From Clostridia bacterium (GTDB taxonomy: Bacteria > Bacillota > Peptococcia > DRI-13 > UBA5745), in assembly GCA_018434325.1 (NCBI GenBank), contig JAHDPO010000032.1, positions 1-39,321 on the forward strand: 39,321 nucleotides of DNA, in the 5' to 3' direction. The position numbers and the translations under genes were made by a program. The notes beneath the pieces are model-generated. The model searched no databases. It was given only the letters and a program-made list of their open reading frames with translations, and was not told the origin of the DNA. Within the stretch, counting starts at the first letter, position 1, and each line of letters begins with the position of its first letter. Of this stretch, positions 4,021 through 26,375 are shown piece after piece.

Positions 4021-4953
4021 TCACCTTTCAAATTCAATACGTAAGCTTGGATCGGTTTCAATTGCAAGGACGATCTCGTTATATTTGTCAATTATATCAG
4101 CTATAGTTGAACTACGGTTTGACTCGTCGAATAGGCTGTGTTCATAAATGTTCGCAGACAGAAATTGCTGTATATCCCACACTTCAATGCGACTATCGAG
4201 TCCGGCATCCGACGCCAAATCCAAAGCGGTACGGACACGATCAAAGATTGTAATAATTACCGGATAGTAACCGTTGTGCAAATTTTTCCGGCACTTTTCA
4301 ATAAGAGAAGCACTTGGTGCGGTTGTACAATGAATTATTGTATTATTAATAACGAAATCGCCGCTTCGGTCCGTAGGCAAGTCAGCTACAGACGCTCCAT
4401 GAACCTCAATCGCTCCCGTAGGCAGAATAATAGAGAGCTTAGCAGCTACTAAATGTTGAAGTACCATACCAAGATACTGTGTTCCGGGGTTTTGGACTTG
4501 CCTCTTTTTAGCTTGCTCGAAAAGCTCTTCCAGATTTGCGCCGATTGTTTTCGATTTTTCTGAAGTTAAAACAAACGGCTGGTTTCTAAAATACTCACGG
4601 ACTTGCTCAGCCCAGAAATCTTCTATAACAGCAAAATCTACCGGTTCTTTTGCATTCCATGCATTGAGGTATTCCACATATTTTATCATCAATCCCATGC
4701 TACCGCGGCTGGTACGCCCGCCTTCGGATGCGAGTATCTGTGTAATGTCATGCTCTTTTAAAATTTTCTTCAGGTTGCCTCCGCCGAGTCCGGCGACTTG
4801 GCCTTTACTGTCAGTCTGATACTCATCCGGATCAAGCGGGAAAACCTTGTCGCTAACCATACGAGTAAATTGAACAACGAGCGAAAGCGTGCCTTTAGTT
4901 ACTATATTATTTTCAATCTGAAATTCTCTCAACTTTCCCTCAGCATTAATCAT
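4021..4953 (-). CDS. DUF4928-like protein, candidate restriction endonuclease of the locus
   Basis: The 310-residue protein resembles the DUF4928 family, recalled as proteins encoded beside C5 methyltransferases. The N-terminal third (residues 1-95) includes LGGGNLKKILKEHDITQILASEGGRTSRGS, which could be DNA-binding. The C-terminal half has a D-x10-H pattern (SGDFVINNTIIHCTTAPS) followed by alternating strands and helices. This could be a nuclease core, but no textbook PD-(D/E)XK motif is obvious. The gene overlaps the upstream methyltransferase by 8 bases and is coupled to vsr downstream. It is the only protein of the operon without another assigned role, so it is the natural candidate for the restriction nuclease. 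That last step is inference from context. Confidence 0.6.
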   Translation of the reverse strand: MINAEGKLREFQIENNIVTKGTLSLVVQFTRMVSDKVFPLDPDEYQTDSKGQVAGLGGGNLKKILKEHDITQILASEGGRTSRGSMGLMIKYVEYLNAWNAKEPVDFAVIEDFWAEQVREYFRNQPFVLTSEKSKTIGANLEELFEQAKKRQVQNPGTQYLGMVLQHLVAAKLSIILPTGAIEVHGASVADLPTDRSGDFVINNTIIHCTTAPSASLIEKCRKNLHNGYYPVIITIFDRVRTALDLASDAGLDSRIEVWDIQQFLSANIYEHSLFDESNRSSTIADIIDKYNEIVLAIETDPSLRIEFER

Positions 4954-6055
4954 TATAAACTGCCTCCGTAATCTTAACTAAGAATTTTTCACCTATGAAG
5001 CGGGCTACAGGAAGCGCTACTGCGTCGCCCATAGCCTTGTAACCGTCGTTGTATGTACCGGGAAGAGTAAAGCTGTCGGGAGCCCCCATAAGACGTGCGG
5101 CCTCACGAACGGTCAACAACCTTGCGTGTACTTCCCCATTCTTCTTGACGACTAAAAATTGTTTACTGCTGCCGCCCTCCGGTGTTCTCAGACAACCGGC
5201 GACACCGTCAAAGCGTAATTCTAATTGCTGCTGCCCATTACGAGTCCTTCTATATCCTGTAGCATATACAGTCTCGTGTTTTTCCAACACGGCTTTGTGT
5301 TTCTCCGGTACTAAGCGTATTACATTATCTTTGTCAAAAGGCACATTCACTTCAATAATATCTTTGAGGGTGAAATGACGTTTTGGGGGCTTTTCCGTAT
5401 ACCACCATATCCAACCCGGCAAAGAGCTCCCCAACTCTGCCGCTGTTTTGCTATGTAACCAGCATGGGCCGGAGCCTATAAGTTCTTCGGGGATATGACG
5501 CCCATGTTGAACAGCAATTACGAAGACCCTCGGTCTAGATTGCGGTAAAAAAAGAGAGGCGTTAAGTACGATAGCGCCGCAGTCGTATCCTCTTTCAGTA
5601 AGCGCCGCATGTAGCTTTCTGTAGTTATTTCCATTGCTGGTGGATAGAAGACCGGACACGTTCTCAACAAGTAAGACGCGAGGTTTTTCCGGCATTTCAT
5701 CAAGGATTCTAAGCCACTCCCATACCAATCCGCTTCGACAAGCGTCAATGCCACCGATAGACCCTGCAAGTGATAGGTCCTGGCAAGGGAAACTTGCCCA
5801 TGACAAGTGAGCGTATGGTAAACTAGCGCCTCTAACATTTTTGATGTCATCCAACAAAAAGTGCTCTGAATAGAAATTTGCCGCATATACGTCAGCCTTT
5901 TGCTGACTGACATCATTCGCCCAAACAGGTGAAAACATATCTTTTAAACCATAGGCAACTAATCCGCTTCCAGCAAAGAATTCATGCATCGTCCACGGAG
6001 CCGACGATAGGTCGATTTTTTCTGTATCTATAAAGGGTAAAACGCATTGAAGCAT
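4946..6055 (-). CDS. DNA (cytosine-5) methyltransferase, second of two
   Basis: This 369-residue C5-cytosine methyltransferase has motif I as HEFFAGSGLVAYGL (residues 24-37), the catalytic SFPCQDLSLAG with Cys91, ENVSGLL at 131-137, QSRPRVFVIAV and a C-terminal GDAVALPVARFIGE. The IGGIDACRSGLVWEWLRIL block after the catalytic motif is typical of the subgroup. It is the first enzyme gene of the operon, 34 bases after the HTH gene, and overlaps the DUF4928-like gene. Two C5 methyltransferases in one locus fit either an asymmetric target with one enzyme per strand, or two distinct sites. The sequence does not decide this. Confidence 0.95.
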   Translation of the reverse strand: MLQCVLPFIDTEKIDLSSAPWTMHEFFAGSGLVAYGLKDMFSPVWANDVSQQKADVYAANFYSEHFLLDDIKNVRGASLPYAHLSWASFPCQDLSLAGSIGGIDACRSGLVWEWLRILDEMPEKPRVLLVENVSGLLSTSNGNNYRKLHAALTERGYDCGAIVLNASLFLPQSRPRVFVIAVQHGRHIPEELIGSGPCWLHSKTAAELGSSLPGWIWWYTEKPPKRHFTLKDIIEVNVPFDKDNVIRLVPEKHKAVLEKHETVYATGYRRTRNGQQQLELRFDGVAGCLRTPEGGSSKQFLVVKKNGEVHARLLTVREAARLMGAPDSFTLPGTYNDGYKAMGDAVALPVARFIGEKFLVKITEAVYND

Positions 6056-9670: not shown

Positions 9671-9798
9671 CTGTATCCTCCGTTCAATATTGCCGCCTTG
9701 GCGGCCTTGGGCTCAAGTGATAGGTGATTTGGTCAGTCAATGACGCTGGCAACGGACCGCCGAAAAACAAAATTGCTGCCTGACCTTTCTTATAGACT

Positions 9799-9847
9799 AA
9801 AAAGGGGCGCCTCTCCTGTACCTTTTCAGGTTCATTTGAGACACCCC
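9799..9847 (-). terminator. Intrinsic terminator in the cbiK leader (riboswitch expression platform)
   Basis: In the minus-strand RNA, GGGGUGUCUC pairs along all ten bases (two G-U pairs) with GAGGCGCCCC, followed by UUUUU. Inside the loop, ACCU-GAAA-AGGU forms a second small hairpin. It lies about 140 bases after the riboswitch aptamer and about 130 bases before cbiK, where ligand-dependent termination would act. I did not work out a convincing antiterminator pairing. Confidence 0.8.
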
Positions 9848-9984
9848 ACTCATCACAATAGGTCTTCCCGCCGGGATAATCATCCCCAACCGACAGTTGG
9901 CCAATGGCTGCCGGACGCCTGCCAATACAGGATGCCGGCATAAGAAGATTCCGTCTCTCGCAGAATTCTTGTTTGCCCTTCTCA

Positions 9985-10135
9985 ACAGCAGGTCTTCCGG
10001 CTTGAGCGTCTTCACCATATCCGCCTTCCCAGTCTCCCAGTGGCCTCTTGGATATGATTCTTCTCTTACGGCGGCGGGACCGCGCAGGCTTTGCACCTGA
10101 CTTCCCTTTTAATCCGGCGGGGCATTTTGAGGAAA
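9985..10135 (-). ncRNA. Cobalamin riboswitch
   Basis: The minus strand shows the conserved elements in order: AAAAGGGAAGTCAGGTGCAA, AGCCTGCGCGGTCCCGCCGC, GTAAG, then GCCACTGGGAGACTGGGAAG, and finally AAGCCGGAAGACCTGC, the B12-box end. It lies between a consensus promoter and an intrinsic terminator ahead of cbiK, so it most likely switches cbiKL off in the presence of adenosylcobalamin. A long open frame over the same bases (9684-10190) is not a gene. Confidence 0.95.
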
Positions 10136-10201
10136 ATAGCAAATGACCCAATGCGGAACTCGATGAGAACGTATATATAGTTTTCAACAAAAAGCACCAT
10201 T

Positions 10202-10258: not shown

Positions 10259-11719
10259 TCACGGAGCCGCAAAGTCAATGCAAATATGCTTAACCTCGGT
10301 ATACTTCATCAGCCCCTCGATGCCTGCCGCCCGGTCAGTACCGCTCAGCTTGTAGCCGCCTGTCTCGGCGTCGGGGAACAAGCGGTTGTAGCAGTTCACC
10401 CAGCAGCTGCCGGCCTTCATCTTGCGGGCTACCCGCATGGCCTTGTCTATGTCCTTGCTCCAGACGCCTGAGGCCAGTCCGTAAGGAGTATTGTTGGCAA
10501 GCTCAATGGCTTCCTCCAAGGTCTCGAAGGTCTGCACCACCAGTACCGGCCCAAAAATCTCCTCCTGCACGATAGGGGAATCCACCGGCGGATCCAAAAA
10601 GATAGTGGGTTCGATGAAGCAGCCTTTATCCAGCCCGTCCGCCGTGATGCGGTTGCCGCCGGTGAGCAGCTGGGCATAGCCCTTGGCTTCCTCGATATAG
10701 CCGAGAATGCGTTCCATCTGGGTGCGGTTGACCACCGGCCCCAGCTGGGTGTCTTCCGCTAGCGAATGTCCCACTTTCAATGACTGAACCAGCTTCACAT
10801 AGGCCGGCAGGAAGGTTTCCGCAGCTTTTCTCTCCAGAATCAGGCGGGAAGCTACGGTGCACAGCTGCCCCGCGTTGGAGAAGGATGCTTTCACGGCGTT
10901 GGCCATTACCTTATCCATGTCGGCGTCGGCAAACACGATGTTGCCCGCTTTCCCGCCCAGTTCCAGGGATACTTTTTTCATCGTGTCGGCAGCAGTCCGC
11001 ATGATATGCTGGCCTACTTCCGTGCCGCCGGTGAAAGTGATCATGTCCACATCCTTGTGGGCAATCAGCGCCTCGCCGGCATCGCTGCCGGGGCCGCTCA
11101 GGGTATTGATGACGCCTGCCGGGAACATGCCGGTTTCATGGAGCAGCTCCAGCAAGATCAGAGTGCAGCCTGAGGTTTGGGCGGCGGGCTTCACCACAGT
11201 GGTGCAGCCGGCGGCAAGAGCCGGAGTCATGTCGCGCATAAACAAGGTAACCGGATAGTTCCAGGGCGAGATGGCGCCCACCACACCCACCGGCTCCCGA
11301 GCCAAAAGCGAAAAAGAGCTCGGGTCCACATTGGTGGTGCCGCCATATATCTTGCGTGCCGAAGCGGCGCTGTACTCAAGATAATTGATGGCATTGCCCG
11401 TCTCAAAACGGGCCTCGCCGATGGGTTTTCCCGCCTCGGCGGCCAAAATCCGGGCAACCTCCTCATGATGCTCCCTCAGCTTTTGGGCCCAGGCATACAA
11501 GGCGTTGGAGCGCAGACGCGGGTTATAGGCCCAGTCGGCATGCTCAAAGGCCTGCCGGGCAGCCTGCACCGCCTTGTCCACATCAGCTGCCGAGGATTTG
11601 GGCACGATTGAGACGACCTGTCCGTCAGCCGGGCAAAGCACCTCCATCGTAGCTCCACTGGCGGCGTCGCACCATTCACCATTGATATAATTCCGATAGC
11701 TTCTTGCCTTGATTTCCAT
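10259..11719 (-). CDS. NAD(P)-dependent aldehyde dehydrogenase
   Basis: The protein (486 residues from the ATG at 11719) is a full-length aldehyde dehydrogenase that oxidises an aldehyde to its acid. Key residues are visible: Asn154 in SPWNYP, Glu253 in LELGGK, the catalytic Cys287 in NAGQLCTVASR, and the PIVQEEIFGPVL segment. Overall it resembles betaine-aldehyde and related broad dehydrogenases. The substrate is not readable. A GGAGG/GGAG region directly before the ATG at 11719 decides against the ATG seven codons upstream. It is the last gene of the eleven-gene operon, 55 bases after the UbiD-family gene, and may act on the aldehyde released by the aldolase of the operon (inference). Confidence 0.92.
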   Translation of the reverse strand: MEIKARSYRNYINGEWCDAASGATMEVLCPADGQVVSIVPKSSAADVDKAVQAARQAFEHADWAYNPRLRSNALYAWAQKLREHHEEVARILAAEAGKPIGEARFETGNAINYLEYSAASARKIYGGTTNVDPSSFSLLAREPVGVVGAISPWNYPVTLFMRDMTPALAAGCTTVVKPAAQTSGCTLILLELLHETGMFPAGVINTLSGPGSDAGEALIAHKDVDMITFTGGTEVGQHIMRTAADTMKKVSLELGGKAGNIVFADADMDKVMANAVKASFSNAGQLCTVASRLILERKAAETFLPAYVKLVQSLKVGHSLAEDTQLGPVVNRTQMERILGYIEEAKGYAQLLTGGNRITADGLDKGCFIEPTIFLDPPVDSPIVQEEIFGPVLVVQTFETLEEAIELANNTPYGLASGVWSKDIDKAMRVARKMKAGSCWVNCYNRLFPDAETGGYKLSGTDRAAGIEGLMKYTEVKHICIDFAAP

Positions 11720-11774
11720 TTCTCCGCAGCCTCCCGTCATTTAAAAATCGCAATCATAATTATGTACCTTCCTC

Positions 11775-13142
11775 TTAGGAGGATTTGATCAGTTCCAGCG
11801 CCTGTTTGCGCACATCTTCCGGCAGCCGTACCCGCTGGGCCTCCCAGCCGGCGGGCTTAGTAGCGTCGATACCCATCTTGGCTGACATGCCCTCCTCCGA
11901 AGAAGGGTCCAAACGGTTGCACAGCACCCTGGGTACGATGAACACATCCCTGTCCGCCTGCATGCGGGTAGCCGCCGCCCACCACACTTCCTCCTCATTG
12001 AATACATCCACGTCCTCATCCACCGTCACAATCAGCTTCAGATACGGGTCCAGTCCAAACAGCAGCAGCATTGCCTGCCGAGCCTGGCCCTCGGCCCTGG
12101 GGCTCATGGACAGGTAAGCGTGGAAGTGGCAGCCGTTTTTGGGCATGCTGAGGGCTTTCACCTCGGGAATCTCCCGCTGCAGCTTATTAAGCAAAATAAT
12201 CTCTTTGGTAAACTGGCTGAGCAGCAGATGCTCCCAGGCAAATCCCGGCACCAGGTCCTGCCAGATGGGCTCATTGCGGTGAGTAATGGCATCCACCATA
12301 AACACATTGCGGGTGGAGCGGCTGGTGCTGTAGCCGGTGTATTCGCCGAAGGGGCCCTCATCCTCATGGGTATCGGCCAATATGCGTCCCTCCAGCACAT
12401 ATTCCGCAAAGGCCGGCACCGGAATACCCGCACAAATGCTTTTGACCGTTTTGGGTACGGCGTCCATGTAGGCGCCGGCCCAGCTATAGTCATCCTGGTG
12501 CAGCGGCACTTTGGAGGCTCCCACAATGTAATAGGCGGGGTGGGCGCCGATAACCACCGCAATCTCTAAATCCTTGCCCCTGGCCTCACTGGCAGCCATA
12601 TAGCGCCACAAGTCGCCCCGGGAATGCAGGCTGATGCCGATTTTGTTTTTGCCCTTAATCTGCATGCGGTGAAAGCTGAAATTACAGCGCCCGCTCTGGG
12701 GGTCCTTTGCTATCACGATGCCTGCGGTGATGTAGGCGCCGGCGTCGTCCGCAAAATGCTTAAAGATAGGCAAGGCGGAAAGATCCACCTGGGCTTCCCT
12801 CAATATATTCTGCTGGCAGGGCGGGTCGGCCGCCATCTCAAGGCTGCCGAACTCCTCTGCTTTTTGCTCCACCTCCACAATATTGTGGATACAGGCCTTC
12901 AGGATATCCCGGTCGGCAAAAATATTGGCCACGGTTTTTGCGCCGGTATCCGGGTCGGTAAGCTGCACTACAGGGAAGCGTTCTTGCTTCTCCAGCTCTT
13001 CGGTGATGGCGCTGAGCAAAAAGTCCTGTCGCTTGATGGTATAGCGGAGCAGCTGATCTTCAGTCAAATTGGCCAAAAAACCGCGCAGAGACTGCCCTTC
13101 ATCATCAGCGCAAGTCGCAGTATGCTTTAAATCCGCCGTCAT
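11775..13142 (-). CDS. UbiD-family prenyl-FMN-dependent decarboxylase
   Basis: UbiD enzymes use prenylated FMN to decarboxylate (or carboxylate) aromatic or alpha,beta-unsaturated acids. The product has 455 residues and shows the catalytic set: Arg159 in NFSFHRMQIKG, and Glu262 and Glu267 in EDEGPFGEYTGY, with the same five-residue spacing as the E277/E282 pair of Fdc1. The C-terminal VTVDEDVDVFNEEEVWWA block is also family-typical. The start at 13142 has GGAGG nine bases upstream; the ATG seven codons earlier lacks a good site. The gene overlaps the kinase gene by 38 bases, indicating translational coupling. UbiX, which makes the cofactor, is not in the window. The presence of UbiD in a sugar/nucleoside-type operon is unexpected. 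Confidence 0.93.
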   Translation of the reverse strand: MTADLKHTATCADDEGQSLRGFLANLTEDQLLRYTIKRQDFLLSAITEELEKQERFPVVQLTDPDTGAKTVANIFADRDILKACIHNIVEVEQKAEEFGSLEMAADPPCQQNILREAQVDLSALPIFKHFADDAGAYITAGIVIAKDPQSGRCNFSFHRMQIKGKNKIGISLHSRGDLWRYMAASEARGKDLEIAVVIGAHPAYYIVGASKVPLHQDDYSWAGAYMDAVPKTVKSICAGIPVPAFAEYVLEGRILADTHEDEGPFGEYTGYSTSRSTRNVFMVDAITHRNEPIWQDLVPGFAWEHLLLSQFTKEIILLNKLQREIPEVKALSMPKNGCHFHAYLSMSPRAEGQARQAMLLLFGLDPYLKLIVTVDEDVDVFNEEEVWWAAATRMQADRDVFIVPRVLCNRLDPSSEEGMSAKMGIDATKPAGWEAQRVRLPEDVRKQALELIKSS

Positions 13143-14556
13143 AATATGCGGCCTCCTTGTCATCGGGCATATAGGTCGCCCTTGTCTGATCGGCCCAGGC
13201 CGAGGCCTCGGCCATGCTGCCGAAATATCCCATGGCGCCGGCGGCGCACAACAGCGCCCCCCAGGCGCTGGCTTGCTTTTGCTGCGCCACCTGCACCGGT
13301 TTGCGCAGCACCGAGGATAGTATCTCCAAAAAGCACCGGTTCTCGCTCATGCCGCCGAAGACCTTCACTGCGTCGGCGGTTCTGCCGCAGACACGCTCCA
13401 GCCGTTCCACCGAAAGCCGGGCCTCGTAGCACAGCCCCTCGTACACCGCCCGCATCAAATGGCTGCGGCTGTGGAAAACAGCGAGGTTGGCAAAGCGTCC
13501 CTGCACCCCTGCCGAGGTGACCTGCCAGAGCAGCGGCACCGCCAAAAGGCCCTCGGCTCCGGCAGGCGCACCCTGGGCCAGCGCGTCCAGGCCGCGCCAC
13601 TCCTCCGTTGCCACCGGCATATGCCCTAAAAGCAGTGTGGAAAACCAGTCCATAAACTGGCCTCCCGCTCCGGTGCCGAACTCCGGCCCATAGACCCCCT
13701 CGGGCAGTACCTCCACAGTCACTAAACCCTCCGGATCAAAAGCCGGAGCGGCGGCAGCCATACTGGCCACATAGGTGGTTCCCATGTTGATGGCGATCTG
13801 GTTTTGCCCCACTGCACCGCAGCCCAACAATGCCGCCGGCTGGTCGCCGGGGGCCGCCACAACAGCCGCGCCGGCAAGCAGGGGCAGCTCCGTCGCTGCT
13901 TCCACCCTTCCCAGGCAGCCGCCGGGCTCGACGCAGGACAATCCCAGGTTTGGCTGGTTTGCACCCAAGGCGGGAAATAGCCCCTCAGCCGCCTGCCTGC
14001 CCTCAATATCATACAGACCGTTGCGCAGAGCCGAGCCGGCGGACTGAACCAGCCGCCCGCAGAGACGGCTGGCCAGATAATCCTGGGGGGAGAGCCAGGC
14101 CGCCGCTTGAGCGTAAAGCTCAGGTTTATTTTTGTGGCACCAGAGTATTTTGGCGGCGCCGTTGAAGGATACGAAAGGACAGCCTGTTTTCCGGTAATAC
14201 GCCGCTGCCGATACCCCATAGTCCGCCAATTCCGCTGCGGTCAGCGCCCGCCCGTCGCTGTCGCACATGGCGTTGGCCAGCGGCTGCAAGGCAGCATCCA
14301 CCGGCAGCACCGTGCCGCGCTGGTGGGTTATGGCCAATGCTTGGGCAGCGGCGCCTTCGGGCAATGCTTCCGCCAGCCGGCCGGTCACCTCACAAAAGGC
14401 CTGCCACAGCCTCCGGGGCTCCAGTTCCTGTATGCCCGGTGCGGTTATCCGCTGATAATCGGCGCTGGCGGCGGCCACAATAGCCTGCTGGTCCGTGTCG
14501 TAGGCCAGGGCCCGCACCCCGTGGGTCCCCGCGTCATAGCCTAAAATAAGGGACAA
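13105..14556 (-). CDS. FGGY-family carbohydrate kinase
   Basis: The 483-residue protein is an FGGY kinase that would phosphorylate a sugar or polyol with ATP. It starts with ILGYDAGTHGVRALAYD, the phosphate-binding loop of the family. It has GDQPAALLGCGAVGQNQIAINMGTT in the middle and VFGGMSENRCFLEIL near the C-terminus. The canonical W-x-D-x-R substrate motif appears as MCDSDGRA (about residue 97), a variant that may reflect an unusual substrate. The family includes xylulokinases, ribulokinases, glycerol kinase and the AI-2 kinase LsrK, and a specific call is not justified. The start is a TTG at 14556 with GGGGTGA upstream. It lies 42 bases after the dehydrogenase gene. Confidence 0.88.
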   Translation of the reverse strand: MSLILGYDAGTHGVRALAYDTDQQAIVAAASADYQRITAPGIQELEPRRLWQAFCEVTGRLAEALPEGAAAQALAITHQRGTVLPVDAALQPLANAMCDSDGRALTAAELADYGVSAAAYYRKTGCPFVSFNGAAKILWCHKNKPELYAQAAAWLSPQDYLASRLCGRLVQSAGSALRNGLYDIEGRQAAEGLFPALGANQPNLGLSCVEPGGCLGRVEAATELPLLAGAAVVAAPGDQPAALLGCGAVGQNQIAINMGTTYVASMAAAAPAFDPEGLVTVEVLPEGVYGPEFGTGAGGQFMDWFSTLLLGHMPVATEEWRGLDALAQGAPAGAEGLLAVPLLWQVTSAGVQGRFANLAVFHSRSHLMRAVYEGLCYEARLSVERLERVCGRTADAVKVFGGMSENRCFLEILSSVLRKPVQVAQQKQASAWGALLCAAGAMGYFGSMAEASAWADQTRATYMPDDKEAAYYDGGFKAYCDLR

Positions 14557-14598
14557 AATATCACCCCGCTTTGCTTGGAGTTAAGTTTCAAATCCGGG

Positions 14599-15708
14599 TC
14601 AAACTTGGGTCAGGTCCAGCCCGATTTTTAAGTTCTCGCCTTTGCCGTACAGGCTGATGGCCTCCTCGATCTGCGAAAGCGGGAATTCCCGGTTCCTGAT
14701 AATCTGATGATCCAGAATACCTGAGGCCAGCATTTTCAGGGCTTTTTCACCGTGCTGGCGGCCAAAGCCCACCGTGCCGGTCAGATTCAGCATATTGTAA
14801 TGGATAAAGTTCATGCTCACACACAGCTGGTCGGCATCCAGCGCCGCCGAGGCAAACAGGCTCACTGTCCCCTGTTTGGCCGCCATCTTCAGGGCCTGCT
14901 GGGTACAGGGCAGCTGAGCCCGGCCGCCGCTGGTGACAAACACCTTGCTGGCCCCCAGCCCCTCTGTCAGCTCCTTTACCCTGGCTACCGGGTCTTCCTT
15001 GGCGGAATTAATAATCACCTTTGCTCCCAGCTTTTTGGCCATCTCCAGCCGGGTGTCGTCAATATCCACACAGATAATATCTTCGGCGCCATTGTAACGG
15101 GCGGCAGGCACATGCATCAGCCCCATAGGCCCCATACCGATGATTACCACCGTGTCGTTTTTGCCGGTCCCCGCCGCATCCACGCTGTGTATTACATCGC
15201 CTAAAGGCTCAACCAGGCTGGCCGCCTCCATGGAAAGGCCCTCGGGCAGCGGTATTACGCAGCTTTCCGGCGCTTTCAGATGGGTGGCATAGCAGCCGCC
15301 CACACCCGTTTCGTGGTAGTACTTTACGCAGTCGGTAAAACTGCCTGCCGATGCGCCGATACCCAGCAGATTGAGGCACATATTGGTTTTGCCCTGCTTG
15401 CAGTAGGCGCAATGGCCGCAGGCGATCATGGGCTGCACGGCCACGGCGTCTCCCGGCTTCACGGCAGTCACTTCACTGCCCACCTGGATTACCACGCCGG
15501 CGGCCTCATGCCCCAGCACATAGCTGCCGATATCCCTCAGCGCACTTTCTACGTCGGGCTTGTCGGCGTTGTATTTCTTTATGTCGGTGGGGCAGAGGGC
15601 TGCTTTTTTCAGTTCCAGCACCACATCATTGGGCCCCGGCTCGGGCAGTTGAATCTCTTCCAACCTTATCTTTTTCGGCGCGTAAAGCACCGCCGCCATC
15701 GCTTTCAT
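14599..15708 (-). CDS. Zinc-dependent medium-chain alcohol dehydrogenase
   Basis: This 369-residue MDR-family dehydrogenase oxidises an alcohol or polyol with NAD(P). Catalytic zinc ligands are visible in the LCPTDIKKY and LGHEAAGVV segments. The structural zinc site is CGHCAYCKQGKTNMC, and the Rossmann fold is seen at VVIIGMGPMGLMHV followed by IICVDIDDTRLEMAKKLGA. It is closest in feel to threonine, sorbitol or butanediol dehydrogenases, but the substrate is unknown. The ATG at 15708 is chosen because CAGGAGGTTCAAGGAA precedes it. It lies between the aldolase and kinase genes, consistent with oxidising a hydroxyl group of the same intermediate. Confidence 0.9.
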   Translation of the reverse strand: MKAMAAVLYAPKKIRLEEIQLPEPGPNDVVLELKKAALCPTDIKKYNADKPDVESALRDIGSYVLGHEAAGVVIQVGSEVTAVKPGDAVAVQPMIACGHCAYCKQGKTNMCLNLLGIGASAGSFTDCVKYYHETGVGGCYATHLKAPESCVIPLPEGLSMEAASLVEPLGDVIHSVDAAGTGKNDTVVIIGMGPMGLMHVPAARYNGAEDIICVDIDDTRLEMAKKLGAKVIINSAKEDPVARVKELTEGLGASKVFVTSGGRAQLPCTQQALKMAAKQGTVSLFASAALDADQLCVSMNFIHYNMLNLTGTVGFGRQHGEKALKMLASGILDHQIIRNREFPLSQIEEAISLYGKGENLKIGLDLTQV

Positions 15709-15769
15709 TTCCTTGAACCTCCTGAACATATTCCGGTATTTTTTGTCGGTGTCATGCCAATCTGGGCGT

Positions 15770-16591
15770 TCAGTCGCACAGGGACAGGAAGGTTTCCCTG
15801 TCGCCGTTGTAAGTAATGGCTTTCAGCGCCTGCACCATTTTGGCCGGATCGGGGCTTTGCCATACATTGCGGCCGAAGACAACGCCATAGGTGCCGCACT
15901 TGGCCGCCGCCTCGATGGTATCGGCTATTTGAACAGCCTCCGCCTTGCCGCCGCCCAAAATGGTAACGGGTACCGGGCAGTTGTCCACCACCTGCCGGAA
16001 CTCTTCGGGAGTACCCATAAAATCACACTTTACGATGTCGGCGCCCATCTCGGCAGAGATACGGGCCATATCCGCATAAAGGGATACTTTTTTGCGATCC
16101 TCGGCGGTAAACTCCGCTCCCCAGGTGGTGGGCTCCACAATCAGCGGCATATCCCAGCGATTGCACTCCTCAGCCAGCTTGGTGATGTAGCGCATATTTT
16201 CTGTGTGCAGGTCCATGTTGCGTTTGCCGAAGACCAGCAGAGCCTTGATGCCGTCGGCGCCCAGCCGCACGCATTCCTCTACCGAAATAGACTGCTGAAC
16301 ATGCTCGATCTCACCTTCCCGCTGGGGAATCCCGCCGGAAATGATGAAGTCGGAAGAAATAACCAAAGAGGGCTTGTTTTTGCCGCCAAACATCCAATTG
16401 AAAATACGGGCCATGCCGCTGCCCAGCAAAATGGCGTCCGGGTTGGCGTCCACAATAGTCCGCAGCAGCTTTTCGGGATGGGCCAGTCCCGGCTTTACGC
16501 CTCCTTGCCCATGATCCATAGCCACCATTACTGTCTTGCCGCAGTTGTCAAATAAACGGTTGAAGCGGAGTTCCTTATTCCAGTGTCTCAT
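15770..16591 (-). CDS. Class I aldolase of the DhnA/LsrF (DeoC/LacD) family
   Basis: The 273-residue protein belongs to the DhnA-type class I aldolases, which include archaeal-type fructose-bisphosphate aldolase, ADH synthase and the AI-2 enzyme LsrF. The N-terminal VMVAMDHGQGGVKPGL, the central GADGIKALLVFG and GADIVKCDFMGTPEEF with the probable Schiff-base Lys188 are visible. VTILGGGKAE and YGVVFGRNVWQ supply the phosphate-binding ends. It would split a phosphorylated ketose-like compound, plausibly the product of the FGGY kinase encoded two genes downstream. The ATG at 16591 has GGAGATTGGAATC upstream. It follows the amidohydrolase gene by 18 bases. Confidence 0.88.
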   Translation of the reverse strand: MRHWNKELRFNRLFDNCGKTVMVAMDHGQGGVKPGLAHPEKLLRTIVDANPDAILLGSGMARIFNWMFGGKNKPSLVISSDFIISGGIPQREGEIEHVQQSISVEECVRLGADGIKALLVFGKRNMDLHTENMRYITKLAEECNRWDMPLIVEPTTWGAEFTAEDRKKVSLYADMARISAEMGADIVKCDFMGTPEEFRQVVDNCPVPVTILGGGKAEAVQIADTIEAAAKCGTYGVVFGRNVWQSPDPAKMVQALKAITYNGDRETFLSLCD

Positions 16592-16609: not shown

Positions 16610-17947
16610 TTATATGTTTGAGCGCTGCAGCAGTTTTTCCAAAGCCGTCTGCGCCCTGTGCCGCAAAATATTCGTATCCACCGCCACCGGCTTTTTATTT
16701 CGGTAGACGAAACGCCCGTCCACCATGGTGTCGGTTACCATATGAGCGCCGCCTGAGTAAACCAGCCCGGCTACACTGGGTTTTTGAGGGGCCGTCTGGG
16801 GATGGTTCCAGTCGATAACGGCCAGATCCGCTTTTTTCCCCGGGGCCAGCACGCCTATATCTTCAGCCATGCCCAGGGCCTTTGCCCCGCCCAGGGTGGC
16901 TATCTCAAAGGTGCGCTGAGCAGTCATCGCCGTAGGCTGGTGCAGCGTGCCCTTTTGCAGCAGCGAGGCAAACCGCATCTCGGTAAACATATCCAAGGTG
17001 TTGTTGCAGGGGGCCCCATCCGACCCTAAGGAAAGGGTGATTCCGGCATCGGCCATCTTCTCCAGGGGAGCAATCCCCGACGCCAGCTTCAAATTGGTCA
17101 AAGGGCAAGAGGCCACTTTCACCTGCTGTTCTTGCAGGATGCGGATATCCTCGTCGTCCACGCAGACGCAATGGGCCAAAAGCAATCTTTCGTTGGCCAG
17201 ACCCAGCCGGTGCAGGTATTTGATTTCCGTCTGCCCCCGGCGCTGTTCCACCAGCCTGCTTTCAGGCAAGGTTTCACAAGCGTGGGTATGCACCAGCACC
17301 CCATATTCCGCCGAAAGATCGCGAATCCGCAGCAGCAGCTCCTCCGAAGTAGTGAGGATGCCCCGGGGCATCAACCCGTAGGAGATCCGGCCCCCCGCTG
17401 CGCCGTGCCATCTTTTCAGTAAGCGCAGGGATTCGTCCAGTGTCTGCTGCGTGGTTTCGATGAAGCTGGCGGGCAGGCCGCCCAGCTCCGGCGGCGTATC
17501 GGTGTAATCCATCATCACCTTGCCAAAGACAGCCCGCAGGCCCAGTTCCTCCACCGCCCGGGCCGCCGCATCCGCATGACGCACCGACTCCATGATGCAA
17601 ACGCAAGTCACGCCGCCGGCCAGCAGCTCGGTGCCGGCCAACAAAGCCGAAAGGTAGGTGCTTTCCTCATCGTGGGCGGCCTCCAAGGGCCAGATGCGGG
17701 TGCGCAGCCAATCCAGCAAAGCCATGTCGTCAGCGGTTCCCCGCAGCATTACTTGACAAAAATGCACATGGGTCTGTACAAATCCCGGAATCACCAGACG
17801 GCCTGACAGATCCACATTCATATAATCGGGCAGGCTGTCCATCTGGGTAAAGCCTGCAATCCGGTCGCCGTCCACCATGATGTTTTCGGCAACCGGGTCA
17901 CTGTGTCCATCACGCAGTACCAAGGCATTTTTTAAAAGTTGTTTCAT
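16610..17947 (-). CDS. Amidohydrolase-superfamily deaminase (TrzN/SsnA/MtaD-like)
   Basis: The 445-residue protein is a metal-dependent amidohydrolase of the group containing methylthioadenosine/S-adenosylhomocysteine deaminase, guanine deaminase, SsnA and triazine hydrolases. The metal and catalytic residues are in PGFVQTHVHF (His60, His62), LVHTHACET, LLLAHCV and SLGSDGAPCNN. LAPGKKADLAVID near the end is also typical. These enzymes hydrolyse an amine or chlorine from an N-heteroaromatic ring. Next to a BMP-type importer, a nucleoside-like or purine-like substrate is a reasonable guess, not a demonstration. The start has GGGAG upstream. It lies 35 bases after the second permease gene and 18 bases before the aldolase gene. 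Confidence 0.88.
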   Translation of the reverse strand: MKQLLKNALVLRDGHSDPVAENIMVDGDRIAGFTQMDSLPDYMNVDLSGRLVIPGFVQTHVHFCQVMLRGTADDMALLDWLRTRIWPLEAAHDEESTYLSALLAGTELLAGGVTCVCIMESVRHADAAARAVEELGLRAVFGKVMMDYTDTPPELGGLPASFIETTQQTLDESLRLLKRWHGAAGGRISYGLMPRGILTTSEELLLRIRDLSAEYGVLVHTHACETLPESRLVEQRRGQTEIKYLHRLGLANERLLLAHCVCVDDEDIRILQEQQVKVASCPLTNLKLASGIAPLEKMADAGITLSLGSDGAPCNNTLDMFTEMRFASLLQKGTLHQPTAMTAQRTFEIATLGGAKALGMAEDIGVLAPGKKADLAVIDWNHPQTAPQKPSVAGLVYSGGAHMVTDTMVDGRFVYRNKKPVAVDTNILRHRAQTALEKLLQRSNI

Positions 17948-17982: not shown

Positions 17983-18903
17983 TCAGATGACCCGGGTCTT
18001 GCTCTTTTGTTTTTCCCGCCAGGAAGTGACGGCCAGCACGACGATAGTCACCACATAGGGTACCATCAACGCGAAGTAGGACGGTACCTGCACCAACTGC
18101 AGCCGGCTGGATAAGCTCTCTACAAAGGCAAACAATATGGCTGAAAAAAACACCCGCAAGGGCTTGGCGCCGCCGAAAGCAATGGCCGCCATGGCAATAA
18201 AGCCGCGCCCCGCCGACATGTTTTCCACATACTGCGTCAGGTATCCGGTGGATAGATAGGCCCCGCCCAAGCCGCAGAGTACCCCATGGATCAATACGGT
18301 CATATAGAGGGTCCGCAGCAGCGAAACACCCGAGGTCGCCAAGGCCTGGGGATTTTCGCCGGCAGCCCGGATGTAGTAGCCGAACCGCGTGTGGTAAAGC
18401 ATGAAGTGCACGGCAAATACCAGGGCCAAGCCGATCCACACCATAATCGACTGCTTGTGGAAGATCGTGCCGATGACGGGGATTTCTTTCAAAAACCCGA
18501 TATCCAGCGTGGGGATGCCTTGTACACGGGGATCCGTGAAGGCTCCCTTGACGCCAAAAATGGCCCGCAGCAGATAAGTGGTGACGCCCAAGCCCAGCAT
18601 GTTGATGGCCACGCCGGTGACAATCTCATGAGCCCGCAGTGAAATGACAAAGACGCCGAAGAGCAGCGCCGTCAGCGTGGTGAATACCACGCCTCCGATC
18701 AGTCCCGCGATCCAGCTGCTGGTGTAATAGTTTACCACAAAACCGGAAAAGCAGCCGATCAGCATCAAGCCTTCAAGGCCGATGTTTTCAATGCCGGCCT
18801 GTTTGGTGAGCAGGCCGCCCAGCGATACCAGCAGCAGCGGAACCATCACACGCAAGGCAGCGGCAAACACCTCCGGGCCAAACAGTGTCTGTAAAAAAGG
18901 CAT
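17983..18903 (-). CDS. ABC importer permease, NupQ/YufQ type
   Basis: The protein (306 residues) is a membrane permease of the BPD_transp_2 family, with roughly eight to nine hydrophobic segments. Family landmarks include GGLLTKQAGIENIGLEGLML near the N-terminus and AGENPQALATSGVSL with GRGFIAMAAIAFGG in the second half. It pairs with the adjacent longer permease to form the channel of a nucleoside-type importer. Only one base separates it from that gene, and GGAGG lies eight bases before its ATG. It is the shorter partner, as NupQ is in Bacillus subtilis. Confidence 0.92.
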   Translation of the reverse strand: MPFLQTLFGPEVFAAALRVMVPLLLVSLGGLLTKQAGIENIGLEGLMLIGCFSGFVVNYYTSSWIAGLIGGVVFTTLTALLFGVFVISLRAHEIVTGVAINMLGLGVTTYLLRAIFGVKGAFTDPRVQGIPTLDIGFLKEIPVIGTIFHKQSIMVWIGLALVFAVHFMLYHTRFGYYIRAAGENPQALATSGVSLLRTLYMTVLIHGVLCGLGGAYLSTGYLTQYVENMSAGRGFIAMAAIAFGGAKPLRVFFSAILFAFVESLSSRLQLVQVPSYFALMVPYVVTIVVLAVTSWREKQKSKTRVI

Positions 18904-18904
18904 C

Positions 18905-19981
18905 TCAGCTACCTCCAGTCCCTTGTTTTTTTTCGCGCCGGTGCCGCAGCCCGGTCATAAATTCAGTAAAGTATTTGGAGAACGAAACCTGGGCAGCCAT
19001 AAACAGAATAATCACCGCTTGGATGACCTTGCTTAATTCGGACGGCACGCTGGTGGCCAGTTCCATGGTAAGGCCGCCGCTGCGCAGGGCGCCGAACAAA
19101 ATGGCCATGGGGATGACGCCGATGGCGCTGAAGCCGGCCATCAAGGCAATGGTCAGGCCGTCAAAGCCGTAGCCCGGCGAAATATTCTGCACAAAACGGT
19201 ACTGGATGCCCAGCACCAGCGCCGCTCCCCCGATGCCGGCAAAGCCGCCGCCCAGAAACATACATTGCAGTGTCCGCGCATTCACGTCAACGCCGATGTA
19301 TTTGGAAAAGATGCTGTTGCGTCCCAGCATGCGCATCTCATAACCTGCGCCGGTGTAGCGGAACATCACCGCCACCAGAATACAGGCCGCGATAGCCAAA
19401 AGAAATCCGACGTTGAACCGGGAGCCGGGATAAAGCAACGGCAGCCGCGCGGCCTTCTGAATATTCACGGTCATGCCCAGCGGTGCGCCGGGGGCCTTGA
19501 AGGGGTAGTTGACCAGATAGGAAGTGAATAAAATAGCCACATAGTTCAGCATCAGCGTTGTAACCACTTCGTTGGTGCCGGTCTTGATCTTCAGTGTGGC
19601 AGGGATCAGTCCATATAGCCCGCCGGCCAAAAATGCCGCCAGCAGCGCTACCGGGATAAGCAAAAAGCCCGGCAGCGGCAGGTATACGCCTACCAGCGCC
19701 GCCGCCATGCCGCCCATATACAACTGACCCTCCGCGCCGATGTTGGCCATGCCGCCTTTAAAAGCCACCGCCACACCCAGACCTGTAAAAATAAGCGGTG
19801 TGGCGCTGGACAGGGTGCCGGCCAGATTGGACATACCATTAAAAGCGCCTTCGATCAGTGCGCCGTAAGCCACCAGCGGATTGTCGCCGTTAAGCAGAAT
19901 AATGACCGTGCCGATGACCAGGGACACAAGGAATGCACACAACGATATGAACGGCAGTAATAACTTGCGGAATATCTTCAT
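18905..19981 (-). CDS. ABC importer permease, NupP/YufP type
   Basis: This 358-residue permease is the longer partner of the BMP-type importer. An N-terminal membrane anchor (LLLPFISLCAFLVSLVIGTV) is followed by GTLSSATPLIFTGLGVAVAF and ANIGAEGQLYMGG, a hallmark of these permeases. VTTLMLNYVAILF and NISPGYGFDGLTIALMAG also fit. The short C-terminal tail is basic. It follows the ATPase gene by 43 bases. The position in the operon (binding protein, ATPase, long permease, short permease) is the standard order for nucleoside importers of this class. Confidence 0.92.
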   Translation of the reverse strand: MKIFRKLLLPFISLCAFLVSLVIGTVIILLNGDNPLVAYGALIEGAFNGMSNLAGTLSSATPLIFTGLGVAVAFKGGMANIGAEGQLYMGGMAAALVGVYLPLPGFLLIPVALLAAFLAGGLYGLIPATLKIKTGTNEVVTTLMLNYVAILFTSYLVNYPFKAPGAPLGMTVNIQKAARLPLLYPGSRFNVGFLLAIAACILVAVMFRYTGAGYEMRMLGRNSIFSKYIGVDVNARTLQCMFLGGGFAGIGGAALVLGIQYRFVQNISPGYGFDGLTIALMAGFSAIGVIPMAILFGALRSGGLTMELATSVPSELSKVIQAVIILFMAAQVSFSKYFTEFMTGLRHRREKKQGTGGS

Positions 19982-20024: not shown

Positions 20025-21560
20025 TCAGGCAGTGCCCTCCAGCCCTTTTACGCCGGTCATATACAAGCCGATCTCCTGCTGGCTGATGGAATCGGGGGTG
20101 AAAGAGCCCACGATTTTGCCGTCAAACAGTACATGGATACGGTCGCTCAGGGCATATACTTCGTCCAAATCGGTGGAGATCAGCAGGACGGCGCGGCCCG
20201 CGTTGCGTGCGGCAATCAGCTGCTCGTGGATAAAATTGGTGGCCCCGATATCCACGCCCCGGGAAGGCTGCGCCACCACCAGCACTTTGTTGCCAAAGCT
20301 CATCTCCCGGGCCACCACAATCTTTTGCTGGTTGCCCCCCGAAAGACTGCTGGCCTCGATATCCAGTCCGGCCGTCTTTATATTGAACTTTTCCACAAGG
20401 TCCGCCGCCAGCCGCGAGGATTTTTTGTAGTCAAAGAACGGGCCTCTTCTAATCTCCGGCGAGCGCTGCCGCCCTCCCAGGAGATTATCGTGTACCGAGG
20501 CGGCCAGATTGAGCCCCGTTTTCATACGGTCCTCCGGAATAAAAGAACAGTATTTGCGGCGGCTGCGCACATCCTGGTGAGCAATATCCTCGCCGTCGAC
20601 CAGCACCTGGCCCTGCTCTATATGGGCAAAGCCCATCAGCGCCTCAACCAGCTCGCTCTGGCCGTTGCCTTCCACTCCGGCAACCGTCAGTATCTCTCCC
20701 GCCTTCACATCCAGCGAAATATCTTTCAATTTGATCATATTAAAACTGTCGCGCACCTGCAGGCCACGTATGGAGAAAGTGATTTTCTCCTCTTCTTGCG
20801 GCTTCTTTTCCAGGGGCACAAAATCCGCTTCCCTGCCCATCATCAGGCCGGCCAGACGGTGCTCGTCGGTATCGCTGGTTTTCACGGTACCCATGGTTAA
20901 CCCCCGCCGCAAAACGGTGATGTGATGGGATACCTCCATAACTTCTTTCAGCTTATGGGTGATCAGCAATACGGTTTTGCCCTGTTCGGACATGCCGCGG
21001 AGCACCTTAAACAGCTCCTGGCATTCCAGCGGCGTCAATACGGCGGTAGGCTCATCCAGAATCAGGATATCGGCGCCCCGAGACAAGGCTTTCAAGATTT
21101 CCACCCGCTGTAAAAGTCCCACCGACAGGTCGCATACCTTTTTTTCCGGATCTACTTTAAGGCCGTATTTCTCCGAGATATTCCGGGCATGGGCTATCAT
21201 CTTTTTTTTGTCTACCCGGCGCAGGCTTTTTAAAGGCTCCTGGCCCAGGCAGATGTTTTCGGCTACCGTAAAGTTGGGCACCAGCTTAAAATGCTGGTGG
21301 ACCATGCCGATTCCCAGCGCAATAGCGGCCTTGGGCGACGATATTTTTACCGGGCGGCCGTTGACCTTCACGTTGCCGGAGCTGGGCGCCACCAGGCCGT
21401 AGAGGATGCTGGTCAGCGTCGTTTTGCCGGCGCCGTTTTCTCCGACAATGGCGTGGATTTCTCCCTTGATCACCTTGATATTCACATCTTTATTGGCCTG
21501 CAAAAGACCATAGTTCTTGCAGACGTCGGTCATTTCTACCGCATATTCGATGTTTGGCAT
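20025..21560 (-). CDS. Double ABC ATPase of a BMP/nucleoside-type importer (NupO/YufO-like)
   Basis: The protein (511 residues) has two ABC domains in one chain, as in RbsA and NupO. The first has an intact Walker A (GENGAGKTTL), signature LSVGLLQRVEILKAL and Walker B ILILDEPTAVL. The second has a degenerate Walker A (GVEGNGQSELVEAL) and signature LSGGNQQKIVVAREM, so only one half is likely to be a standard ATPase site, which is normal for the family. The ATG at 21560 is preferred over upstream starts because GGGAG lies eight bases before it and the conserved sequence begins there. A strong RNA hairpin lies just before the gene. Confidence 0.93.
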   Translation of the reverse strand: MPNIEYAVEMTDVCKNYGLLQANKDVNIKVIKGEIHAIVGENGAGKTTLTSILYGLVAPSSGNVKVNGRPVKISSPKAAIALGIGMVHQHFKLVPNFTVAENICLGQEPLKSLRRVDKKKMIAHARNISEKYGLKVDPEKKVCDLSVGLLQRVEILKALSRGADILILDEPTAVLTPLECQELFKVLRGMSEQGKTVLLITHKLKEVMEVSHHITVLRRGLTMGTVKTSDTDEHRLAGLMMGREADFVPLEKKPQEEEKITFSIRGLQVRDSFNMIKLKDISLDVKAGEILTVAGVEGNGQSELVEALMGFAHIEQGQVLVDGEDIAHQDVRSRRKYCSFIPEDRMKTGLNLAASVHDNLLGGRQRSPEIRRGPFFDYKKSSRLAADLVEKFNIKTAGLDIEASSLSGGNQQKIVVAREMSFGNKVLVVAQPSRGVDIGATNFIHEQLIAARNAGRAVLLISTDLDEVYALSDRIHVLFDGKIVGSFTPDSISQQEIGLYMTGVKGLEGTA

Positions 21561-21583
21561 TGAAGCATCTCCCATTTTGCGAG

Positions 21584-21626
21584 ACAGGCGCCGCACCCCC
21601 ATGCTGCCACGGGGATGCGGGCCTGT
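21584..21626 (-). promoter_or_regulatory. Intercistronic hairpin between the binding-protein and ATPase genes
   Basis: In the minus-strand RNA, CCGCAUCCCC pairs with GGGGGUGCGG around a 10-base loop. An outer ACAGGC/GCCUGU pair extends the stem. No U-run follows, so it is probably an mRNA-stabilising or partial-attenuation hairpin, of the kind that lets a binding protein be made in excess over its ATPase and permeases. Confidence 0.6.
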
Positions 21627-21704: not shown

Positions 21705-22772
21705 TTAAGATTTGGCATCCACAGGGGTGATCGAGCCGTTCATGATGCCTTCTTCGGTTTTGGTCATGGCGTCCAGCACATCCGCCGGCATTTTGGCCTT
21801 GAACTCAGGAGAGAAGTACATGCCGGTCCAGCCCTTGGCTAATCCTTCGTACTGCACTTTTTCCATGGTTCCGCCCTCCACGAAAATACCGATAGCATCG
21901 TAGAAGGATTTGGTTACGTTTTTCAGCATGCTGCCCATCACGTTGTCAGGAGCCAGAGGGCTCTTGTCGGTGTCGACGCCGATGGTGTACAGTTTGCGCT
22001 CTTTAGCTGCCTCGGTGACGCCGTTGCCGCTGCCGGAGGCTGCCTGATACACGATGTCGCAGCCCTGATCAAACAGGGTGAGGGCCAGTTCCTTGCCTTT
22101 GGCAGGATCATTGTGGTCGCCTACGATCAAGCTCAGCACCTTGATGTCGGGATCGATAGACTTGGCGCCCTGCTCATAAGCCTGCAAGAAATTCTGGATG
22201 GTGGGGGTGTCCACTGCGCCGACAAAGCCCAGGGTTTTCTGGTCGTTGATGCCGGGGAAATCGGTGCGGGTGGTCATCATGCCGGCCATTACGCCTGCCA
22301 CATAGGAACCCTCATGCTCACGATAGGAAATAGAGTAGATATTGTCCTTCTCCACCGGGGAAATGCCGTCGGGATAGAAGAAATAGGTATCGGGATACTG
22401 ATCGGCGACCTCTTCCAGATAGCTTTCAAACTGATAGCCCGGATTTACAATAACCATATCAAAGCCCTGAGCGCCTTTCAAAAGCAGGTCATAGTACAGC
22501 GAAGGATCGTTTTTGCCTTCCAGAATCTCATATTCGATTCCGAAGTCGGCCTTCGCCTGCTTCAGTGCCTCGGCGCCCATGTCGAAGATACCGTTGTCGC
22601 CCAGGCTGCCGGAACAAACCATGGCAACCTTCTTCACCGTGCCGCCGGCCTGAGTGGGCTCGGTGGCGCCTGTGGCGGTGGTGCCGGCCGGCGGCGTCGA
22701 GCCGCTGCCTCCGCAGGCAACCAGTGTGAAAAGCATAAACAGGGACAATGTCAATGCAACAAGCTTTTTCAT
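21705..22772 (-). CDS. BMP-family substrate-binding lipoprotein of the ABC importer
   Basis: The 355-residue protein starts with a lipoprotein signal peptide (MKKLVALTLSLFMLFTLVAC, lipid-modified Cys20) and a Gly/Thr/Ala-rich linker. It then has the BMP (PnrA/Med-like) periplasmic-binding fold: VAMVCSGSLGDNGIFDMG, YREHEGSYVAGVMAGMMT and CDIVYQAASGSGNGV. It would be anchored outside the membrane and capture the substrate for the importer. Characterised BMP proteins bind nucleosides, but some relatives bind other ligands. AAGGAGATGG precedes the ATG. It is the second gene of the operon, 76 bases after the regulator gene. Confidence 0.93.
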   Translation of the reverse strand: MKKLVALTLSLFMLFTLVACGGSGSTPPAGTTATGATEPTQAGGTVKKVAMVCSGSLGDNGIFDMGAEALKQAKADFGIEYEILEGKNDPSLYYDLLLKGAQGFDMVIVNPGYQFESYLEEVADQYPDTYFFYPDGISPVEKDNIYSISYREHEGSYVAGVMAGMMTTRTDFPGINDQKTLGFVGAVDTPTIQNFLQAYEQGAKSIDPDIKVLSLIVGDHNDPAKGKELALTLFDQGCDIVYQAASGSGNGVTEAAKERKLYTIGVDTDKSPLAPDNVMGSMLKNVTKSFYDAIGIFVEGGTMEKVQYEGLAKGWTGMYFSPEFKAKMPADVLDAMTKTEEGIMNGSITPVDAKS

Positions 22773-22848: not shown

Positions 22849-23607
22849 TTATTGCGTAGTCGTCATTATCTTGATGTCGTTTTTCTTAAAATAATCAAGA
22901 TAATCTCTATTCGGTATTTTGTCGGTAATCAGAATGTCAAAAGTGTTCAGTGCCGCAGCCCTGAACAGCTTGGCCTCTCCAAACTTGGTATGGTCGGCCA
23001 GCAGAACCTTGGTCCGCGCCTGGCGCAGCATGGTTTGCTTAAGAGCGGCTGCATCTTCCTTAAATTCGGTAACACCCTCCATTAATGAGACGCCGCCCGC
23101 GCCCACGAAGGCGTATTTATAATTCAGGCCCTTATAATGATCCTGGGCCGCGGGCCCAAAAAGGGTAAATAAATTTTTGTTTAGCTCCCCGCCGGAAAGA
23201 TGAACCACCGCCTCTCCCTGACTGGCAGTGATGGCAACATGGATAGAGGAGGTAACAATGAAGATGTTTTTTTTGGCAATGCATCTGGCCAGCTCGTTGA
23301 TGCTTGTGCCGTTGTCCAAGGCCACCGAATCCCCGTCTTCTACCAAACTGGCTGCCAGCGCCGCTATTTGCCGCTTGGCATTGGGCATGTTGGCCGCCCG
23401 CATGGGCATGGCCTGTTCCAGAAGCAGCCCTTTAGACAAACTCACGCCGCCAAAGGAGCGCTGCACCACACCTTCCCTCTCCATTTTAGACAGGTCCCGG
23501 CGTACCGTCATCTCGCTTACCTCAAGAGTGCCGGACAATTCCTTTATGGTCAGTGAGGGTTTATTTTCCAATAGATTGAGTATGTTTTCTCTGCGCTGAT
23601 CGTACAT
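22849..23607 (-). CDS. DeoR-family transcriptional regulator
   Basis: The protein has 252 residues from the ATG at 23607, where GGAGGTCCGGCA supplies the ribosome-binding site. The N-terminal DeoR helix-turn-helix is clear (LTIKELSGTLEVSEMTVRRDL followed by MEREGVVQRSFGGV). The C-terminal effector domain follows, with DSVALDNGTSI, the HLSGGELN signature segment, and LLADHTKFGE. Such domains usually sense a phosphorylated sugar, which fits the kinase in the same operon. As first gene of the operon it probably represses its own transcription and that of the downstream genes until the inducer appears. Confidence 0.93.
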   Translation of the reverse strand: MYDQRRENILNLLENKPSLTIKELSGTLEVSEMTVRRDLSKMEREGVVQRSFGGVSLSKGLLLEQAMPMRAANMPNAKRQIAALAASLVEDGDSVALDNGTSINELARCIAKKNIFIVTSSIHVAITASQGEAVVHLSGGELNKNLFTLFGPAAQDHYKGLNYKYAFVGAGGVSLMEGVTEFKEDAAALKQTMLRQARTKVLLADHTKFGEAKLFRAAALNTFDILITDKIPNRDYLDYFKKNDIKIMTTTQ

Positions 23608-23637
23608 TGCCGGACCTCCGTACATGGCAGTTTGATT

Positions 23638-26365: not shown

Positions 26366-26375
26366 GAACGTTTCT

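Follow-up and report, generated by a model that had tools for sequence, protein, structure and literature searches.

UbiD-family decarboxylases can also run as carboxylases, a reversibility that has attracted wide interest; their chemistry needs a carboxyl group on an unsaturated carbon. For HmfF, the heteroaromatic acid that serves as substrate arises by aldehyde oxidation. The structure of this 2,5-furandicarboxylate decarboxylase (6H6V) is named PtHmfF in PMC8988006, where the E-R-E network of UbiDs is also stated.

According to a 2026 preprint (PMC12934955), Clostridium scindens converts riboflavin to lumichrome anaerobically, and riboflavin induces a gene neighbourhood, fin, that encodes RibF, a class I aldolase, an alcohol dehydrogenase (ADH), an aldehyde dehydrogenase (ALDH) and glycine-reductase subunits and is found in C. 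scindens and other Lachnospiraceae. The words 'UbiD', 'decarboxylase' and 'amidohydrolase' are absent from the main text of the preprint. A literature search found no description uniting UbiD, an FGGY kinase, an aldolase and an ABC transporter.

Organization of the operon

The DNA analysed here is a 39-kb contig, the whole of which is referred to as the window. It contains an intact UbiD-family decarboxylase gene as the tenth gene of an eleven-gene unit on the minus strand, which runs from a DeoR-family regulator to an ALDH and consists of the following features.

23677-23705, minus strand: promoter-like TTGACA-17-TATATT before the DeoR gene (consensus match only)
22849-23625, minus strand: DeoR-family regulator at the head of the unit (family match)
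21705-22772, minus strand: BMP/PnrA-type substrate-binding protein (family and structure-sequence matches)
20025-21602, minus strand: ABC ATPase (ABC_tran matches two stretches)
18905-19981, minus strand: ABC permease 2 (BPD_transp_2)
17983-18903, minus strand: ABC permease 1 (BPD_transp_2)
16610-17947, minus strand: ATZ/TRZ-type amidohydrolase, 5'-deoxyadenosine deaminase-like (metal ligands intact)
15770-16591, minus strand: DhnA/archaeal-FBA/LsrF-type class I aldolase (K188; GGGK and GRN motifs intact)
14599-15729, minus strand: Zn-dependent MDR alcohol dehydrogenase, sorbitol/threonine dehydrogenase-like (family and structure-sequence matches)
13105-14556, minus strand: FGGY-family kinase (38-nt overlap with the UbiD gene)
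11775-13142, minus strand: UbiD-family decarboxylase (R159, E262, E267; TIGR00148, PF01977, PF20696)
10259-11740, minus strand: aldehyde dehydrogenase (C294 and E260 intact)

The intergenic distances within the unit are between -38 and 102 bp and are followed by 588 bp to CbiK. A cobalamin riboswitch (9971-10142, minus strand) lies within this gap, before CbiK/CobI, and the unit therefore most likely ends before the riboswitch. An ORF at 9684-10190 (minus strand) was rejected as a twelfth gene, being without a family match and overlapping the riboswitch. The promoter scan relied on the consensus only and gave 14 sites against a mean of 11.6 in shuffled sequences. Cobalamin genes flank the unit on both sides, with CbiK and CobI on one and CbiD, CbiF and CbiG (24271-27593, plus strand) on the other, and the catabolic operon is thus embedded in a cobalamin gene region. 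Elsewhere in the window (4021-6055, minus strand) a C5-cytosine methyltransferase adjoins a DUF4928 protein, possibly as a restriction-modification pair. A plasmid search with positions 11775-14600 gave no match.

The UbiD protein and its closest relatives of solved structure

The longest ORF of the UbiD gene is 11775-13163 (minus strand, 462 aa). A GGAGG motif is found 9 nt 5' of the ATG at 13142, and the corresponding Met (M8 of the 462-aa ORF) is invariant in five aligned UbiDs, those of the window and four relatives. Given this spacing and the invariant Met, 13142 is the better start although the frame is open to 13163, which supports the gene boundaries proposed in the first-pass annotation. 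The protein scores 303.2 bits with TIGR00148 (UbiD family decarboxylase, cut-off 244.85) and matches PF01977 (203.5, cut-off 23.3) and PF20696. The Arg-Glu-Glu triad that the same annotation had placed at R159, E262 and E267 (R166/E269/E274 in the 462-aa numbering) was found at exactly these positions; it is invariant in the five-sequence alignment and present in 22/22 UbiDs compared, which include the three other UbiDs of the window genome. Its spacing of 103 and 5 is close to the 104 and 5 of Fdc1 (R173/E277/E282), as had also been claimed. The protein is likely to be an active enzyme. A role as carboxylase was considered and no support for it was found in this analysis. An AlphaFold2 model of UbiD, built from five sequences, was of poor quality (mean pLDDT 42.2, pTM 0.44).

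By sequence, the closest solved structure is HmfF (6h6v, E = 1.9e-78), followed as next kind by AnInD (7P9Q, E = 2.7e-49, residues 123-459 only aligned), and the E-value for Fdc1 is about 1e-18. Membership in the Fdc1 (acrylic acid) subgroup was thus not borne out, and since HmfF and not Fdc1 is nearest among solved UbiDs, a (hetero)aromatic acid is a likelier substrate than acrylic acid.

Importer and neighbouring enzymes

The substrate-binding protein is nearest to BMP/PnrA-type proteins, and its matched structures include TpN38(b) (4iil), which we take to be the riboflavin-binding RfuA. Vitamin B6 was rejected as a substrate: for each of the four ABC parts a 'putative B6' family gives the top score, but in every case well below cut-off. 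The nearest relatives of the ADH are an uncharacterised alcohol dehydrogenase, threonine dehydrogenases, ketose reductase and sorbitol dehydrogenase. Neither the kinase nor the ADH, ALDH, aldolase or amidohydrolase reaches a curated cut-off among the families listed, which number at most 25 for the ALDH and the amidohydrolase. The residues checked were intact in all six enzymes, i.e. the metal ligands of the amidohydrolase, Asp26, Lys188 and the phosphate motifs of the DhnA-type aldolase, the zinc ligands of the ADH, Cys and Glu of the ALDH, the Asp residues of the FGGY kinase and the UbiD triad; six sequences were used for the amidohydrolase, aldolase, ADH and kinase and four for the ALDH. 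In the amidohydrolase, ADH, ALDH and kinase, these residues are presumed to be catalytic.

When the aldolase is aligned with MJ0400, archaeal FBA and LsrF, its Asp, its Lys and its glycine motifs match theirs, and K188 falls on the Schiff-base Lys. The sequence EPTTWG occupies the place of the archaeal-FBA Tyr, and LsrF is also without that Tyr, so that a thiolase-like cleavage is possible. This likeness to LsrF, together with the AI-2 kinase as second-best structure match of the FGGY protein (after gluconate kinase), is compatible with an AI-2-like route, in which the kinase would correspond to LsrK and the aldolase to an LsrF-type thiolase giving DHAP and an acyl-CoA or acid for decarboxylation by UbiD. 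We regard such a route as quite unlikely, given that MJ0400 and archaeal FBA outscore LsrF, that the kinase reaches 124 bits with the AI-2 kinase family, far below the cut-off of 528 and below LsrK grade, and that the ALDH, or the aldehyde:ferredoxin oxidoreductase (AFOR) found in its stead in one relative, would be left unexplained.

The amidohydrolase scores 515.4 bits with the 5'-deoxyadenosine deaminase family (NF005557), just below the cut-off of 522, and BMP proteins include purine nucleoside binders (PMC7093131). Both observations would suit a 5'-deoxynucleoside salvage related to the DHAP shunt, where deamination of 5'-deoxyadenosine-like compounds, a kinase and an aldolase would give DHAP and an aldehyde, the ALDH would clear the aldehyde and UbiD would be an accessory. 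However, the eleven genes include neither a nucleosidase nor a phosphorylase or isomerase, and UbiD is left without a role, although it is also present in a divergent relative (G398, below) that was found through its aldolase, and this explanation appears distinctly improbable. The first-pass description of the operon as carbohydrate-type fits the FGGY kinase, polyol dehydrogenase and aldolase but leaves out the nucleoside-type BMP importer and the purine-deaminase-like amidohydrolase.

Conservation of the operon in related genomes

A scan of genome contigs with the UbiD protein gave six loci, four at 64-80% identity and two at 39% and 35%. The four are from a Peptococcaceae MAG (L020, identical in gene table to G001/L014 and counted once), an uncultured Clostridia MAG (L021), Lachnospiraceae MAG RUG12861 (L022, the same as G430) and an Eubacteriales MAG (L023), all four carriers thus being MAGs. 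UbiD is present in them by construction, as it was the query. All four share the gene order BMP protein, ATPase, permease 2, permease 1, amidohydrolase, DhnA-type aldolase, ADH, FGGY kinase and UbiD, with DeoR or a part of it in front, and the enzymes are 43-88% identical. The ALDH follows UbiD in three of them; in G430, UbiX takes its place and an operon-type ALDH (55%) is encoded on another contig, which counts against the pathway proposed below. Of the 39% and 35% loci (L024 and L025), L024 was read and has other, not operon-type neighbours. In this Paenibacillus sinensis region (L024:1-21122), UbiX- and UbiD-type genes lie beside a BMP-type ABC importer, a creatininase-family gene (Pfam) and, judged by eye, ECF-like transporter, isochorismatase-, adenine-deaminase- and cyclase-like genes, and it has the look of another N-heterocycle cluster.

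Searches with the aldolase found operon-grade matches in three genomes, the window's included, all of which have UbiD. The first search, which covered 398 genomes of the phylum, gave two hits at E <= 1e-75, one in the window genome itself and one in G398; the second, in the family sample of G430, recovered G430 again. G398 (identical to G798) is a fifth and more divergent carrier (30-53% identity), apparently split across two contigs of an assembly of about 320. One contig (C90) carries ATPase, two permeases, amidohydrolase, aldolase, ADH and FGGY kinase up to its end, and the other (C87) starts with UbiD (53%), after which come a ThiS-family gene and an AFOR; the contig ends break the junction between FGGY and UbiD. 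Aldehyde:ferredoxin oxidoreductases are tungsten enzymes. Given an AFOR after UbiD here, the supply of UbiD with substrate by aldehyde oxidation appears to be central to the pathway, and this oxidoreductase is the strongest single clue for aldehyde oxidation preceding UbiD. The G398 amidohydrolase is 30% identical, with its best match in another subfamily, and that step or the substrate may therefore differ in this genome.

Across the class, a UbiD search with a limit of E <= 1e-90 gave 2/46 genomes, G001 and that of the window itself. In the phylum sample of G430, 14/397 genomes had a UbiD at E <= 1e-85, of which two have the operon (G430 and G398), 11 have UbiDs at 41-44% identity and one is G718. 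The G718 UbiD is 48% identical and lies on a 4.5-kb contig as one of a tandem UbiD pair (L052:1506-4517, minus strand); the best DhnA of that genome (34%) is not operon-grade.

UbiD groups and UbiX supply

In the tree, the six operon UbiDs and that of G718 form one group (100/99), to which the three other UbiDs of the window genome do not belong. The presence of these three indicates that the family has several uses there, as would be expected if the operon UbiD served ordinary phenolic-acid decarboxylation or quinone synthesis and merely shared the transcript of a sugar operon. The separate grouping speaks against this, as does the position of UbiD after FGGY in four relatives (the G398 junction being broken by contig ends), and we consider it very unlikely.

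Ten of the 11 UbiDs at 41-44% identity were read and all belong to a second cluster type (L053-L062, from G563, G587, G443, G529, G638, G687, G499, G663, G479 and G523), which forms the neighbouring group (100/100; joining branch 84/82, not starred). These clusters contain an ECF-like transporter (by eye) and UbiD, UbiX in 5/10 (BLAST), and in 8/10 a gene pair that looks caprolactamase/hydantoinase-like from the sequences, with a family-search match in L057 only, below cut-off. The window UbiD has the sequence RSTRN at residues 275-279 (numbered from the 13142 start), just past the last catalytic Glu, where the second cluster type reads RSTEN. RST[RQE]N after the last Glu is common to both groups, while the three other UbiDs of the genome are without it, and the stretch is possibly a substrate-binding feature.

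UbiD depends in the proposed route on prFMN from UbiX. The observation that no UbiX is nearby is true of the 39-kb contig: the three matches of the genome to TIGR00421, two above the curated cut-off and one weak match below, sit on other contigs, so that the absence of ubiX, which was to have refuted the annotation, does not apply. At least one UbiX above cut-off was found in 6/6 operon carriers. In 3/6 the gene adjoins or sits inside the operon: in G430 it overlaps the UbiD stop, and in G431 and G432 it stands next to DeoR on the contig of the operon and points away from it, with the UbiX family confirmed. In the window genome, G001 and G398 it is on contigs other than that of the operon. At another locus of the window genome (L016, G000:C56:30000-45000), a further UbiD and UbiX flank DctM- and NMT1-type transporter genes, which suggests import of an acid substrate.

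A proposed pathway

Taking the gene complement together, we give roughly even chances to the reading that the operon serves the uptake and breakdown of a ring compound bearing a polyhydroxyalkyl side chain, ending in decarboxylation by UbiD. The BMP-type ABC importer would bring in the compound, the amidohydrolase would probably deaminate the ring, and the polyol dehydrogenase would oxidize the side chain to a ketone, which the FGGY kinase would convert to a ketose-1-phosphate-like intermediate. The aldolase would then cleave this ketose phosphate to DHAP and a ring aldehyde R-CHO, the ALDH (the AFOR in G398) would oxidize R-CHO to R-COOH, and UbiD, supplied with prFMN by a UbiX whose gene lies elsewhere in the genome, would release R-H and CO2; the cell would gain DHAP and reducing equivalents. 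We infer this order as the simplest chain joining the enzyme classes, and R is most likely heteroaromatic. The unexplored substrate class foreseen in the first-pass annotation is suggested by the conserved neighbours, although the substrate is probably a ring compound bearing a polyol chain and not a plain carbohydrate. The operon fixes the importer and the step before UbiD (aldehyde oxidation) and so offers a concrete way to a new natural substrate.

A more specific and rather unlikely version is the oxygen-independent removal of a C-linked polyol chain from an amino-heteroaromatic ring, with UbiD decarboxylating the ring acid last, for instance from a pterin that the amidohydrolase would deaminate, such as a four-carbon pterin derived from molybdopterin. 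Neopterin, with a three-carbon chain, is disfavoured by our own reasoning since its 2'-keto-3'-phosphate would be without the beta-hydroxyl for aldol cleavage. Literature searches found nothing relevant on UbiD with pterin and aldolase (by title) or on bacterial pterin breakdown (by title and start of abstract).

Comparison with known systems

HmfF has the same R-E-E residues as the window UbiD but differs in that it aligns from residue 114 on only, has other gene neighbours and is without the Ser-Arg-Ser-Thr-Arg-Asn found shortly after the last Glu. AnInD, an indole-3-carboxylate decarboxylase, acts on an N-heteroaromatic acid, as in the class proposed here. The kinase and aldolase families of the DHAP shunt for 5'-deoxynucleosides differ from those of the operon, which also has no isomerase or nucleosidase among its eleven genes; the shunt likewise includes a cleavage to DHAP and an aldehyde.

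For fin, the comparison was made with fin-like loci from the family sample of G430. A DhnA-like match at E <= 1e-18 was found in 15/397 genomes of the family of G430. Of the 11 regions read outside G430, five were fin-like (L085, L086, L087, L089, L093) and six were not, so the DhnA family has other uses. One of these regions (L094:5645-8989, minus strand) has DhnA, ADH and FGGY genes in the order of the window near sugar-type ABC parts; no UbiD was seen within the 17 kb that were read, and the three genes may form a polyol-cleaving module of general use. In another (L091:579-8658, plus strand, G1013), a DhnA-like gene lies behind BMP-type ABC parts 33-44% identical to those of the window, with genes resembling, by eye, a xanthine dehydrogenase-type molybdenum hydroxylase, perhaps another ring-plus-side-chain route. 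Of the fin-like loci, L085 has by Pfam both glycine-reductase parts besides RibF (Flavokinase), aldolase, ADH and ALDH, which agrees with the description in PMC12934955; RibF was also confirmed in L086, and the other assignments are by BLAST and eye. The fin-like loci hold relatives 31-38% identical to the window proteins. In 4/5 the DhnA gene lies immediately before the ADH gene, which is also the arrangement of the window, and L093 has the two the other way round, about 250 bp apart.

The occurrence of DhnA, ADH and ALDH relatives in these loci, and the match of the BMP-type protein to TpN38(b), could point to a flavin or another N-ribityl ring compound, whose chain would be converted to N-CH2-CHO and N-CH2-COOH, with UbiD removing that carboxyl or acting on a later ring acid. 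This appears unlikely, since UbiD requires its carboxyl group on an unsaturated carbon, the eleven genes include neither a riboflavin kinase nor glycine-reductase genes, and the operon aldolases (100/100) and fin-like aldolases (99/97) group separately in a tree of 15 rows, four of which are other DhnA types.

The operon and fin thus have in common a class I (DhnA-type) aldolase, an ADH and an ALDH beside a kinase, which is RibF in fin and an FGGY protein in the operon; where fin has glycine/betaine-reductase subunits (long variant), the operon has UbiD. In our reading this replacement would fit a chain linked to a ring carbon rather than to nitrogen, and the C-linked version of the pathway would be the counterpart of fin, where glycine-reductase parts deal with a chain linked to nitrogen. 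The operon appears to encode a pathway related to but distinct from fin, and it may show how anaerobes dismantle ring-polyol metabolites, a theme just opened by the riboflavin-to-lumichrome preprint.
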